Shown piece after piece: positions 8,811 to 18,610 of a stretch of DNA of 64,000 nucleotides. The position numbers were made by a program, and so were the translations under genes. A model generated the notes under the pieces. That model saw only the letters and a list, made by a program, of their open reading frames with translations, searched no databases and was not told where the DNA came from. Source of the DNA: Undibacterium sp. KW1 (GTDB lineage Bacteria; Pseudomonadota; Gammaproteobacteria; Burkholderiales; Burkholderiaceae_D); contig NZ_AP018439.1 in the NCBI RefSeq assembly GCF_009937955.1, positions 4,588,001 through 4,652,000 of the forward strand. The letters are read 5' to 3'. How positions within the stretch are numbered: position 1 is the stretch's first letter; each line of letters opens with the position of its first letter.

Positions 8811-9323
8811 TTACAGATAGTTGGAAATTTCGATCAGGTTTTCGTCTGGATCGCGAAAGTAGACCGAACGTATCGGTCCCATGGCGCCGGTGCGTTGCAC
8901 AGGGCCTTCGGTAATAACCACGTTCACCGCTTTGAGATGTTTGATGACATCGTCGACTGTCGTGCTGGCAATGATGCATAAGTCGACCGACCCTGGTGTC
9001 GGACGGTGTGCATGCGGCACGATTTCCCGTCCAAGCTGATGCAGGTTGAATTTCTGTCGTCCGAATACCAATGCCTTGCGTCCCGAGCCAAAAGTCTCAA
9101 CCTTGACACCAATTGCACGAACATAAAATTCGCAGGTACGTTCAACGTCGGCCACCGTCAGTACGATGTGGTCAAAGCGGTCGAGTACGACTGGATGAGG
9201 GGAGGTGGGCGTGGTCTCCGCGCTGGCGAGATTGCCTGTTCCGGTTGCGGCGATAGTGGCAAGGCCGAGCCCAAACTTGCCAAGCGCGGCGCGGCGGGCC
9301 GAGTTAATGCTATTTTCTGACAT
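8811..9323 (-). CDS. Exported VOC-family protein (glyoxalase fold), Tat signal
   Basis: 170 residues. The N-terminus SARRAALGKFGLGLATIAA resembles a twin-arginine signal, then AETTPTSPHPVV leads into a single VOC module: RFDHIVLTVADVERTCEFYV, KVETFGSGRKALVFGRQKFN, GSVDLCIIAS, GPVQRTGAMGPIRSVYFRDP, NLIEISNYL. Metal ligands of the fold (His in FDHIV, His near KFNLHQ, Glu in LIEIS) are present. It resembles the VOC protein at 14709-15095 in this window across the whole domain, so the two are paralogues bracketing the island. The family covers glyoxalases, epimerases and ring-cleaving dioxygenases; the reaction cannot be told from sequence. Confidence 0.8.
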   Translation of the reverse strand: MSENSINSARRAALGKFGLGLATIAATGTGNLASAETTPTSPHPVVLDRFDHIVLTVADVERTCEFYVRAIGVKVETFGSGRKALVFGRQKFNLHQLGREIVPHAHRPTPGSVDLCIIASTTVDDVIKHLKAVNVVITEGPVQRTGAMGPIRSVYFRDPDENLIEISNYL

Positions 9324-9772
9324 TTTTTTCCCCTTTTTCGGTTTTCATTGTGACAGTCCACTTGGACATCATGTTTCAAGAATCAAAGGGAGAGAATTTC
9401 CAAATTCTCCATCATGCTTTACGGCTACGAAAGGCTGGCCGCGCCATGGCACTGACAGCTCCATGGCAAGAGATGCAGCCTAGTCATGCGACAGCGAACC
9501 ACACATAGCGCCACCGAACGTAGTTGTTACTTCATAACGCATACGGGCGGCGGCGTTGGCCATGATGCATATACGTAGCCATCGTCTGCCAGCACATGAA
9601 ACCACACCTGTGTACCTGCCCCGGGTGAGGTTGCATTCGGCGCTTTGCAACACTTTCCAGAATGGAAGGTGTTGTTGAGGGAATATTGATTGTCATTTTG
9701 TGTTTTTAATTAGACAATGATTTTGCCGCATTTTTTGGCTAGCGCCTATTTGCTGACTTGCCTGGGACCATC
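9324..9772. other. Gene-free stretch upstream of the chemoreceptor gene
   Basis: No convincing gene. On the minus strand a 58-codon open frame ends at 9527 and reads like protein (GTQVWFHVLADDGYVYASWP), but it has no start codon and a stop just upstream, so it is at most a fragment. At 9349-9359 the 11-mer TGTGACAGTCC is followed by a small palindrome (GTCCACTTGGAC, 9356-9367). The same 11-mer recurs in the same orientation at 11429-11439, beyond the chemoreceptor gene. Confidence 0.4.
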
Positions 9773-11383
9773 ATGAAACTTCTGTTTAACTTAAGCATCG
9801 GTACCCGTCTGGGTGTTGGTTTCGCTTTCGTGCTGTCTCTATCTGTGATTGGCACCGCCATTGCCTACAGCAACGCTGCCACCAGCTTGGAGCAGACCAG
9901 GCAAATGATGGACAAGCCGCTTGCCAATGAGCGACTGGCTTCAGACCTAAACGCCCTGATGTCGGCAGCGATTGTGCGAACCTCGATTTTAGTCCGCAGT
10001 AATGATGCCGAGCTCGCCGATAAGTTAGCGAATGATGTAGCGGAAGGTACGCGTGGTGGCGGCGAGTTGCTTGGAAAGCTGGAGCAATTGATGACCACGC
10101 CAGAAGAAAAAAACATCTTCGCCCGCACCTTGCAGGTGCGTGCGTTTTTTCAAAAGGCCAAAACGGACATCGTTAAACTGAAAGGCGCGGTATCTTCAGA
10201 CGAAGTCGAGCGCAAATATGGCGAAACCTTCATGCCTGCCGCGCGCGCCTACCAGGAGCAGGTCCGCCAGCTACTAGTATTCCAGCGCCAACGTATCGAC
10301 GATGCGGCACGCCGCATTGAAGCAAGCACCCGTAATTCCAACCAGTTAATGATTGGTTTGACAATGCTGATGTTGCTTTCAGGGGCTTTCATTGCACATG
10401 CCATTTCTCGCTCGATCACGCAACCCGTCAAGCAGGCATTGCATGTCGCGACAACGGTGGCCAGTGGCGACTTGAGCCTGGACTTGCCGGAGGCAGCGGC
10501 GCGTGATGAAATTGGCGAACTAATGAGTGCTCTCAAGCATATGAACGAGGCATTGCGCGACGTAGTTGGCGAGGTTCAGGATGGCACACAGGTAATTGCA
10601 TTGGCATCGAGAGAAATAGCCGAAGGCAACCACGATTTGTCGAGTCGTACAGAACACCAGGCTAGCTCGCTGGAGGAAACTGCTTCCTCTATGGAACAAT
10701 TGACTGCAACGGTGCGGCAAAATGCGGATAGTGCCCAGCATGCGAATCAACAGGCCAAAGCCGCATCCGAGGTTGCTGCGCGCGGCGGTCGCATCGTGAG
10801 CGAGGTGGTGGTCACCATGGAAGCGATCAACGCCTCGTCCCAGCGTATCGCCGATATTATCAGTGTGATAGACGGGATCGCGTTTCAGACCAATATTCTT
10901 GCACTCAATGCCGCAGTTGAGGCAGCACGGGCAGGCGAGCAGGGGCGGGGATTTGCCGTGGTGGCCAGCGAGGTGCGGAACCTGGCGCACCGTGCGGCCA
11001 GCGCCGCCAAGGAAATCAAGGATTTGATAGACAGCTCGGTGTTACAAGTGGTAAGCAGCACCGCATTAGTACAGCGTGCCGGCACCACCATAGAAGAAGT
11101 GGTTAGCAGTGTACAAAGGTTGGCGCAGACGATTAGTGAAATCACCGCCGCCAGCCGGGAACAGAGCGTAGGTATCGACCAAGTGAATATAGCGGTAGTC
11201 GAAATGGATAACTTCACACAGCAAAATGCCGCAATGGTCGAAGAGGCCGCCGCGACCGCATCCAGTTTGCAGCAACAAGCAGCGAAGTTAGCCGATGTGG
11301 CTGCCAGATTCAAGCTGGGGGCGGGCAACCTTGGTGATGGCCGTGCGCCAGTGCAGCGCACTCCCCTGGCATTGCCGCGCTAA
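9773..11383 (+). CDS. Methyl-accepting chemotaxis protein (Tar-like)
   Basis: 536 residues. The ATG at 9773 starts MKLLFNLSIGTRLGVGFAFV (cytoplasmic tip and TM1). A periplasmic four-helix-bundle sensor follows (about 35-190), then TM2 LMIGLTMLMLLSGAFIAHAI, a HAMP domain (SITQPVKQALHVATTVASGD, DEIGELMSALKHMNEALRDV) and the signalling hairpin. The conserved tip reads IISVIDGIAFQTNILALNAA and EAARAGEQGRGFAVVASEVR. Methylation-type Gln/Glu pairs flank it (SSRTEHQASSLEETASSMEQ). There is no CheR-docking pentapeptide at the C-terminus. It lies beside the LysR and catabolic genes, so it may sense their substrate; that is inference. Confidence 0.92.
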   Translation: MKLLFNLSIGTRLGVGFAFVLSLSVIGTAIAYSNAATSLEQTRQMMDKPLANERLASDLNALMSAAIVRTSILVRSNDAELADKLANDVAEGTRGGGELLGKLEQLMTTPEEKNIFARTLQVRAFFQKAKTDIVKLKGAVSSDEVERKYGETFMPAARAYQEQVRQLLVFQRQRIDDAARRIEASTRNSNQLMIGLTMLMLLSGAFIAHAISRSITQPVKQALHVATTVASGDLSLDLPEAAARDEIGELMSALKHMNEALRDVVGEVQDGTQVIALASREIAEGNHDLSSRTEHQASSLEETASSMEQLTATVRQNADSAQHANQQAKAASEVAARGGRIVSEVVVTMEAINASSQRIADIISVIDGIAFQTNILALNAAVEAARAGEQGRGFAVVASEVRNLAHRAASAAKEIKDLIDSSVLQVVSSTALVQRAGTTIEEVVSSVQRLAQTISEITAASREQSVGIDQVNIAVVEMDNFTQQNAAMVEEAAATASSLQQQAAKLADVAARFKLGAGNLGDGRAPVQRTPLALPR

Positions 11384-17425: not shown

Positions 17426-17452
17426 ACGGGTAACAAACTTCATCAGGGGTAC

Positions 17453-18610
17453 ATGATGGCACACGATACCAACCAGCCTTTGCGGGTGCTGATCGCACCG
17501 GACTCGTTCAAAGGCAGTCTGCAAGCGCACGAAGTGGCACAGCATATCGCCACTGGTGTGAAACAGGCAATCCCAAACAGCGTCATCACGCTGGCACCGA
17601 TAGCCGACGGAGGCGAAGGTACCGCAAGAACGGTAGTCCAAAAGCTGGGAGGACATTGGGGCACGATTACCGTGACCAATGCCAACGGTCATGAGACAGA
17701 GTTGCCCTTTGGCGTTTGCAACAGCGCCACAGTGCCAGTATTTGCGATTTTCGACGTAGCTGAAATTGTCGGCCTGCCGGATGCCATACTGCCAGTTGAA
17801 GCTCGCACCACACAAGGAGTAGGCGAAGCGGTGCGAGCACTGGTCGGGCAAGGTTACAAAACGATCGTCGTTGGCCTGGGTGGCTCTTCAACCAACGATG
17901 GCGGCGTCGGCTTGCTGGCTGAGTTAATGGTGAACGTAAAAGATACGCATGGAAACGTGTTCGCACCAACACTTGGCACATTGGACAAAGTAAGCTCGGT
18001 GTCCATGCGTGAGGATGCTGCATGGCTATCCAACGTCAGTCTGATCGCACTCACTGATGTCAATAGCCCACTCGCCGGGCCCAACGGAGCAAGTCACATT
18101 TTCGGTACCCAAAAAGGCCTTATTGACGTCGATAAGGCCGATTGTCTGGTGCAGAAATTCGCCTCCAGGATCGGCACCATGCTCAACGAAGACCATTCCC
18201 GTATTGCAGGTGCGGGTGCGGCTGGTGGCTTGGGTTTTGCCATTCGGGTCCTGGGTGGCAGGCTGCAACCTGGTGCTGAATTTATATTGAATGTCCTGGG
18301 TTTGGATGATACGGGCATGGACTTCGACTGGGTGATCACAGGCGAAGGTCACTCCGACAGCCAGACACTCCTGGGAAAAGGCCCTGTCTGCGTCGCCAGA
18401 CTGGCAAAGAAAAAAAATATCCCCGTAACCCTATTGTCCGGCGCAATAGCAAGCAGCACAGAACTGTTTGACGAATTTGATGGCTGCTTTTCGATTCAGC
18501 GCTCACCCGTGACACTTGCGTTTGCGATTCAACATACCGACGCACTGTTAGAGTCTGCAGCGCATAACCTTGCAGCACTCTTCCTCTGTGCTGCACGCAG
18601 GAATCAATAA
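17453..18610 (+). CDS. Glycerate kinase (GlxK/GarK family)
   Basis: 385 residues of the two-domain glycerate 2-kinase family. Signatures: RVLIAPDSFKGSLQAHEVAQ, TLAPIADGGEGTARTVVQKL, TIVVGLGGSSTNDGGVGLLA, GAGAAGGLGFAIRVLGGRLQ, VITGEGHSDSQTLLGKGPV. It phosphorylates D-glycerate, usually at C2, feeding lower glycolysis. It is last in the 12.5-18.6 kb operon, directly after the 2-hydroxyacid dehydrogenase. Together they make a hydroxypyruvate to glycerate to phosphoglycerate branch. A GGGG tract lies just before the ATG. Confidence 0.93.
   Translation: MMAHDTNQPLRVLIAPDSFKGSLQAHEVAQHIATGVKQAIPNSVITLAPIADGGEGTARTVVQKLGGHWGTITVTNANGHETELPFGVCNSATVPVFAIFDVAEIVGLPDAILPVEARTTQGVGEAVRALVGQGYKTIVVGLGGSSTNDGGVGLLAELMVNVKDTHGNVFAPTLGTLDKVSSVSMREDAAWLSNVSLIALTDVNSPLAGPNGASHIFGTQKGLIDVDKADCLVQKFASRIGTMLNEDHSRIAGAGAAGGLGFAIRVLGGRLQPGAEFILNVLGLDDTGMDFDWVITGEGHSDSQTLLGKGPVCVARLAKKKNIPVTLLSGAIASSTELFDEFDGCFSIQRSPVTLAFAIQHTDALLESAAHNLAALFLCAARRNQ

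Follow-up and report, generated by a model that had tools for sequence, protein, structure and literature searches.

The presence, within one short island, of genes for a class III coenzyme A (CoA)-transferase, an HMGL (hydroxymethylglutaryl-CoA lyase)-type lyase, a dicarboxylate carrier, a hydroxyacid dehydrogenase and a glycerate kinase raises the question of which acid such a set of enzymes could degrade. The island studied here lies in a stretch of 64,000 nucleotides from Undibacterium sp. KW1 (contig NZ_AP018439.1, positions 4,588,001 to 4,652,000; the window, to which coordinates refer unless another locus is named), whose genome comprises 6.69 Mb in two contigs. On balance, we favour an operon that would convert itatartarate into acetyl-CoA and phosphoglycerate, a substrate deduced from gene content. 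We regard as an even call the wider proposal that it would represent a bacterial route for the catabolism of fungal 2-hydroxyparaconate and itatartarate, with a new activity, itatartaryl-CoA lyase, in a clade of the HMGL family. The enzyme families are all known; novelty would lie in the way they are put together and in the lyase activity, and no route of itatartarate degradation was found in the portions consulted of the open-access literature, subscription journals lying outside this search.

In the scheme that we infer, including its substrates, products and reaction directions, VOC2, perhaps together with an exported VOC1, would open 2-hydroxyparaconate to itatartarate, and the DctA-type carrier would import the dicarboxylate. 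The class III CoA-transferase would form itatartaryl-CoA, probably with succinyl-CoA as donor, and the HMGL-type lyase would split this ester by retro-Claisen cleavage into acetyl-CoA and hydroxypyruvate. The D-2-hydroxyacid dehydrogenase would convert hydroxypyruvate to D-glycerate and the kinase D-glycerate to phosphoglycerate, with induction presumably exerted through the LysR-type regulator. Each enzyme family fits the step assigned to it. Hydroxypyruvate reductase and glycerate kinase form the end of glycerate pathways, with which the island shares a D-2-hydroxyacid dehydrogenase and a TIGR00045-type kinase; here, both genes follow those of a CoA-transferase and a lyase. The genes are as follows.

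8811..9323, minus strand: VOC1, a VOC-family protein (PF00903) with an N-terminal extension
9758..11383, plus strand: methyl-accepting chemotaxis protein with a 4HB sensor (PF12729, PF00672, PF00015), a doubtful member of the set
11466..12428, minus strand: LysR-type regulator (PF00126, PF03466), divergent from the operon
12546..13736, plus strand: class III CoA-transferase (PF02515, 438 bits), with its ATG at 12546 behind GGAGGAG
13749..14456, plus strand: N-terminal piece of the HMGL-type lyase (PF00682, 130.3 bits), with RDG and HxH motifs and an early stop
14450..14698, plus strand: C-terminal piece of the HMGL-type lyase, in another frame, with the GGCPYAPG loop and identity to the lyase of locus L039
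14709..15095, plus strand: VOC2, putative 2-hydroxyparaconate lactonase, resembling STM3117 and GLOD5 and with homologues in the PA0880 position
15149..16480, plus strand: DctA-type dicarboxylate symporter (NF002461, 604.5 bits against a cut-off of 513)
16502..17425, plus strand: D-2-hydroxyacid dehydrogenase (PF02826/PF00389), proposed hydroxypyruvate reductase
17453..18610, plus strand: glycerate kinase of the TIGR00045 type (297.9 bits against a cut-off of 168.45)

Every gene named in the original prediction was recovered by reading frames and family profiles, with the same coordinates, family and order. The plus-strand genes from 12546 to 18610 are separated by gaps of 10–53 bases. This layout is more than chance, because other species have most of the same genes in a similar arrangement. 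The nearest layouts, in Caballeronia glebae (L039) and C. arationis (L053), consist of LysR, transferase, lyase, VOC, symporter and dehydrogenase genes, with genes for SMP-30 and MFS proteins inserted in C. glebae. Plasmid p3 of C. zhejiangensis is annotated with LysR, CoA transferase, HMG-CoA lyase, SMP-30/gluconolactonase, MFS, VOC, dicarboxylate symporter and D-2-hydroxyacid dehydrogenase genes, and Paraburkholderia caribensis has transferase, lyase, LysR, symporter, MFS, SMP-30 and dehydrogenase genes, no VOC gene being annotated in that stretch. Undibacterium crateris (L015) keeps the order of the island from the lyase C-terminus through VOC, DctA and dehydrogenase to glycerate kinase. 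A DctA-type symporter gene is also found in L015, L039 and L053, as well as in L251.

We compared, at a reach of 6 kb, 60 loci of the lyase clade (48–78% identity) and 20 other HMGL loci sampled from the order. A CoA-transferase gene accompanies 56 of the former and 3 of the latter, the corresponding numbers being 16 and 0 for VOC and 2 and 0 for the dehydrogenase; a LysR gene stands within 6 kb in 26 of the 60. The locus is patchy among close relatives, the VOC gene being present in none of 3 congeners and none of 9 other family members sampled at E 1e-30.

The link to lactone opening comes from the VOC proteins, which are 57% identical to each other over 125 residues. The closest solved structures to VOC2 are STM3117 (3huh, E 3.1e-44) and glyoxalase domain-containing protein 5 (GLOD5, 3zw5); it also matches a solved protein named biphenyl-2,3-diol 1,2-dioxygenase III-related, and its closest named relative is that of U. 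crateris (89%). The extension of VOC1 resembles what we take to be a Tat export signal. As reported by de Witt (2023, PMC9875883), PA0880 (RdoPA), a protein of 127 residues from the itaconate operon of P. aeruginosa, is required to turn 2-hydroxyparaconate into itatartarate; this product builds up as a dead end both in PAO1 and in engineered P. putida. The same study describes 2-hydroxyparaconate as a smut-fungus product that blocked itaconate use in engineered Pseudomonas. VOC2 belongs to the same family as PA0880 and is of similar length; unlike PA0880, whose product is a dead end in print, it is adjoined by transferase and lyase genes. In addition, a review (PMC7397319) discusses STM3117 as part of the Salmonella stm3117-3119 set among itaconate-degradation genes.

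We defined the PA0880 position by gene order (ich, gap, VOC, gap, CoA-transferase, ccl) and made the comparison without the PAO1 sequence itself. VOC genes occupy this position in 4 of 20 Pseudomonadaceae loci (L221, L233, L235 and L236), and their products are 62–69% identical to VOC1 or VOC2, VOC2 itself being 63–69% identical to those of L221, L233 and L236. By coordinates, the position is filled by a VOC gene in 49 of 106 ich-bearing Pseudomonadaceae genomes. In Azotobacter beijerinckii (L058), a VOC gene (74% to VOC2) follows ich-like, CoA-transferase and ccl-like genes and closes an itaconate-type cluster, and an Aquabacterium VOC gene (L090) stands near the same three kinds of gene. In a tree of few columns and therefore rough support, VOC2 falls in a clade of 45 sequences (95/85) with all 15 lyase-linked sequences, 24 unlinked ones and five of the nine labelled ITA by an automatic rule, three of these five being lyase loci of one genus. 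VOC1 lies outside this clade, in a set of 46 with 41 unlinked VOC proteins and four from itaconate operons. Beside the VOC gene of L024 (10551-11468), L028 and L095, which are of Burkholderiaceae type, we observed an alpha/beta hydrolase gene, whose family was tested in L024; it is possibly a third lactone or ester hydrolase.

A lactonase-type gene unrelated to VOC, SMP-30/gluconolactonase, occurs in 5 of 109 lyase loci surveyed at a reach of 8 kb, one of the five being the C. zhejiangensis plasmid; the collection contains near-copies, and at least one contig is represented by two entries (L070 and L120). The SMP-30 profile was built from four of these five loci, and three (L251, L252 and L254) came from a plasmid search that listed ten places, of which four were opened; at another opened place, H8, no VOC, SMP-30 or dehydrogenase gene was seen. 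The dehydrogenase is present in 23 of the 59 lyase loci with VOC or SMP-30 (22 with VOC, one with SMP-30) and in none of the 50 with neither. This contrast is weaker than it looks, since VOC2 served to find part of the 109 loci and near-copies are among them; within the order sample, the dehydrogenase occurs in 2 of 16 VOC-bearing and 0 of 44 VOC-free lyase loci. The enzymes form two subfamilies, one comprising the window, U. crateris and Rhizobacter (63–88%) and the other Burkholderiaceae and L104 (60–92%), and the 41–46% identity between them suggests separate recruitment. The dehydrogenase of the island scores best with PRK06487 (331.9 bits, under the cut-off of 448) and reaches 139 bits with the GhrB equivalog, whose cut-off is 492.

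The lyase gene shifts frame near 14447, within a G run that precedes the conserved GGCPYA loop, giving the pieces 13749-14456 and 14450-14698, the second with the GLGGCPYAPG loop and the C-terminus. They are 77% (over 236 residues) and 75% (over 83) identical to the intact lyase of L039. The RDG, HxH and GGCPYA-loop motifs, which we take to be catalytic elements, are all there, split over two frames, and are continuous in relatives such as L039. Either a real mutation or a sequencing error could account for the break. The route had been called complete, a description that the broken gene does not allow: the route may be inactive in this strain, unless the break is a sequencing error. By phylogeny, the island lyase stands outside the branch of 19 control HMGL sequences, taken as canonical HMG-CoA lyases, which includes the other copy of its own genome. 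It belongs to a supported group of 16 (97/83), in which the other 15 all have a VOC gene nearby and are nearly all named Burkholderiaceae. Its clade has N97, H106, R112, N208 and R210 (L039 numbering) in place of the V, F, N, D and Y, respectively, that prevail among the controls.

This clade is common in Burkholderiales, and many Pseudomonadaceae have it close to the itaconate operon. A lyase of the clade at an identity of at least 55% is present in 55 of 248 Pseudomonadaceae genomes, and 51 of these 55 also have ich. Of the 36 pairs on a shared contig, 32 are no more than 30 kb apart, and in each of these 32 the two genes are on opposite strands. The lyase is present in 39 of the 49 ich genomes with VOC in the operon and in 12 of the 57 without (Fisher p 1.7e-9, relatedness ignored), a table that covers 106 of 109 ich genomes, three weak matches having been dropped, and 55 of 78 lyase genomes at the identity threshold just given. 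Of six Pseudomonadaceae stretches that were fetched, five have the lyase facing the itaconate operon, and the sixth (L242) comes from a genome without a listed ich; five of the six have a LysR gene called next to the pair. A gene for a DctP-type TRAP binding protein stands near the transferase/lyase pair in these stretches (family tested in L238 only). Genome G890 has the VOC gene and no lyase of the clade in the genome list, a layout in which itatartarate would be expected as a dead end.

The island itself resembles the itaconate operon (ich, ict, ccl; PA0878-PA0886 in Pseudomonas aeruginosa) in its class III CoA-transferase, its LysR gene, a lyase type yielding acetyl-CoA and a keto acid and, as in some genomes, a VOC gene. 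It differs in that the lyase is of the HMGL type, the CitE-type (S)-citramalyl-CoA lyase (ccl) being absent from the operon, whose genes belong to other families, and in that dehydrogenase and glycerate kinase genes follow. Moreover, querying its genome with the ich-like protein of L058, without a positive control, gave no match at E 1e-5. Seven loci of genus f12/g18 (L117, L119, L122-L125 and L127) were considered as cases of the lyase inside an itaconate operon and rejected. They have an ich-like gene downstream, followed in L117 by aminotransferase, homoserine dehydrogenase and threonine synthase genes, and the HpcH/HpaI gene present in five of the seven is just 26–27% like ccl; the automatic rule of the VOC tree still labels three of them ITA.

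Itatartarate as the substrate, reached in the original prediction by CoA-ester logic alone, receives more backing than expected from direct observations: the gene families, the homology of VOC1 and VOC2 to PA0880-position proteins, SMP-30 in a few relatives, recurrent gene sets in which the dehydrogenase accompanies only VOC or SMP-30, and the Pseudomonadaceae linkage. These fall short of proof of the substrate. We place it above citramalate and 3-hydroxy-3-methylglutarate because of the two lactonase-type families, the two dehydrogenase subfamilies and the linkage to the lactonase-bearing itaconate operon.

Several observations weigh against this interpretation, the broken lyase of the window among them. 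VOC genes without transferase, lyase, ich or ccl within 6 kb make up 38 of 80 named loci, some on short contigs and including that of U. crateris, on a contig that ends within the lyase gene, and all 20 loci of a class sample (20 of 24 VOC places outside the own genome). Across the order, VOC matches occur in 117 of 399 genomes and VOC stands near the lyase in 16 fetched loci; 19 of 20 order-sample VOC loci (L195-L214) are unlinked, a set that leans to unlinked genes because it was drawn from the VOC places that remained once those retrieved together with a lyase had been set aside. With so many unlinked family members, VOC was rejected as a specific marker of the route. VOC2 could also be a glyoxalase, since one study, as quoted in the review cited above (PMC7397319), claimed glyoxalase activity for STM3117. 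The gene-neighbourhood search suggested with the original prediction bore out the recurrence of the transferase/lyase pair and, in part, that of the dehydrogenase, which is missing from 36 of the 59 lactonase-bearing lyase loci, is rare in the order sample (2 of 60) and is labelled in none of 8 Pseudomonadaceae loci inspected. It found the island-type kinase in one other species only, U. crateris. The genome has no second match to the TIGR00045-type kinase at E 1e-5; even so, the island kinase was rejected as its sole glycerate kinase, a GckA-type kinase (PF13660) being encoded elsewhere in this genome and in all 3 congeners. Finally, the co-occurrence counts reflect a small number of clades, derive in part from searches with VOC2 and contain near-copies as well as duplicate contigs.

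That itatartaryl-CoA is the only simple CoA ester able to link the two halves of the set, as the original prediction had it, is too strong. Citramalate fits the loci that lack the dehydrogenase: the pair would degrade it, perhaps as the (R) form, to acetyl-CoA and pyruvate, with VOC, dehydrogenase and kinase serving other compounds. No VOC gene accompanies the lyase in 44 of the 60 loci from the order sample, and 50 of the 109 have neither VOC nor SMP-30 nor dehydrogenase; the lyase also sits near itaconate operons. According to one report (PMC12290011), the itaconate CoA-transferase of C. necator had little activity on (R)-citramalate, a point that we count in favour of this reading. Lyase residues are much alike in loci of both kinds and show no clear pattern separating those with and without VOC, so the clade may not be confined to a single acid. 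Where lactonase and dehydrogenase are missing, citramalate may well be what the pair degrades, its product pyruvate needing nothing further. For the island as a whole, we consider citramalate unlikely, as it leaves unexplained two lactonase-type families, a dehydrogenase seen only beside them and the glycerate kinase. The family names would instead suggest degradation of 3-hydroxy-3-methylglutarate to acetyl-CoA and acetoacetate by an HMG-CoA lyase and a succinate:HMG/glutarate CoA-transferase, with which the island pair shares its enzyme families. The N-terminal lyase piece exceeds the cut-off of the HMG-CoA lyase model NF004283 (261.6 against 246 bits), and among solved structures the transferase has succinate--hydroxymethylglutarate CoA-transferase (9br7) as its second-best relative. 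However, the position of the lyase outside the control branch, its clade residues and the transferase score, far under the equivalog cut-off (277 bits against 750 for the top NCBIfam model, succinate--glutarate CoA-transferase), make this reading quite improbable; acetoacetate requires neither dehydrogenase nor kinase, and the itaconate-operon linkage would go unexplained.

Another lactone-forming hydroxy acid such as hydroxycitrate also qualifies on paper: its CoA ester would yield acetyl-CoA and oxaloglycolate and, after loss of CO2, hydroxypyruvate, a route that would likewise employ lactonase, dehydrogenase and kinase. We judge it very improbable, given that the carrier is of the C4-dicarboxylate type, the operon has no decarboxylase and the genetic linkage is to itaconate genes. 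Compatible with any of these substrates is a decaying, silent island, in which a former route would be inert in this strain through the broken lyase. The frame break, the transposase gene behind the kinase and fragmentary hydrolase and TonB-receptor frames upstream are consistent with it, and we hold it to be a serious, if minority, possibility; on the other side, the reading frames for LysR, transferase, VOC2, symporter, dehydrogenase and kinase are intact, and one break within a run of bases might stem from a sequencing error.

If itatartarate is indeed the substrate, the route would be the missing half of the pathway reported as a dead end in 2023 (PMC9875883). Lactonase and lyase together would make a food source of a fungal compound that inhibits itaconate use, and a function would be given to many genes named 'hydroxymethylglutaryl-CoA lyase' and 'CoA transferase' and to the VOC and SMP-30 genes adjacent to them. 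The comparison names a specific gene pair, its lactonase-type and hydroxypyruvate-handling companions and the species in which itatartarate use is testable.

A few observations concern the surroundings of the island and of its relatives. GC content and promoter-like sites gave nothing useful. A chemoreceptor gene also stands near the set in the VOC-bearing lyase loci L070/L120, L122, L124, L026 and L096; being near few relatives' loci only, it is not a regular part of the gene set, beside which the original prediction had noted it. In L017 (7069-8229), L018 and L026, a zinc alcohol dehydrogenase-type gene lies just ahead of the lyase, with no matched CoA-transferase gene nearby, and the substrate there may derive from a branched alcohol. 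In L131 (6632-15011), a clade lyase adjoins itaconate-type CoA-transferase, ccl-like and ich-like genes, together with aldehyde dehydrogenase, alcohol dehydrogenase, ketopantoate-reductase-like and SDR genes. Upstream of the island, the stretch 5723-8803 holds fragmentary reading frames: a PAF-AH/PETase-like hydrolase apparently in two frames, a TonB-receptor remnant and a luciferase-like monooxygenase frame that aligns from profile position 57 onward. Downstream, an IS4/IS5-type transposase in two overlapping frames (18883-19667; PF13340, then PF01609) starts 272 bases past the kinase. It is followed at 19682-27903 by genes for a DUF2264 protein and a TonB-dependent receptor, with a long frame between them that by eye resembles beta-galactosidase, possibly a polysaccharide-use locus.

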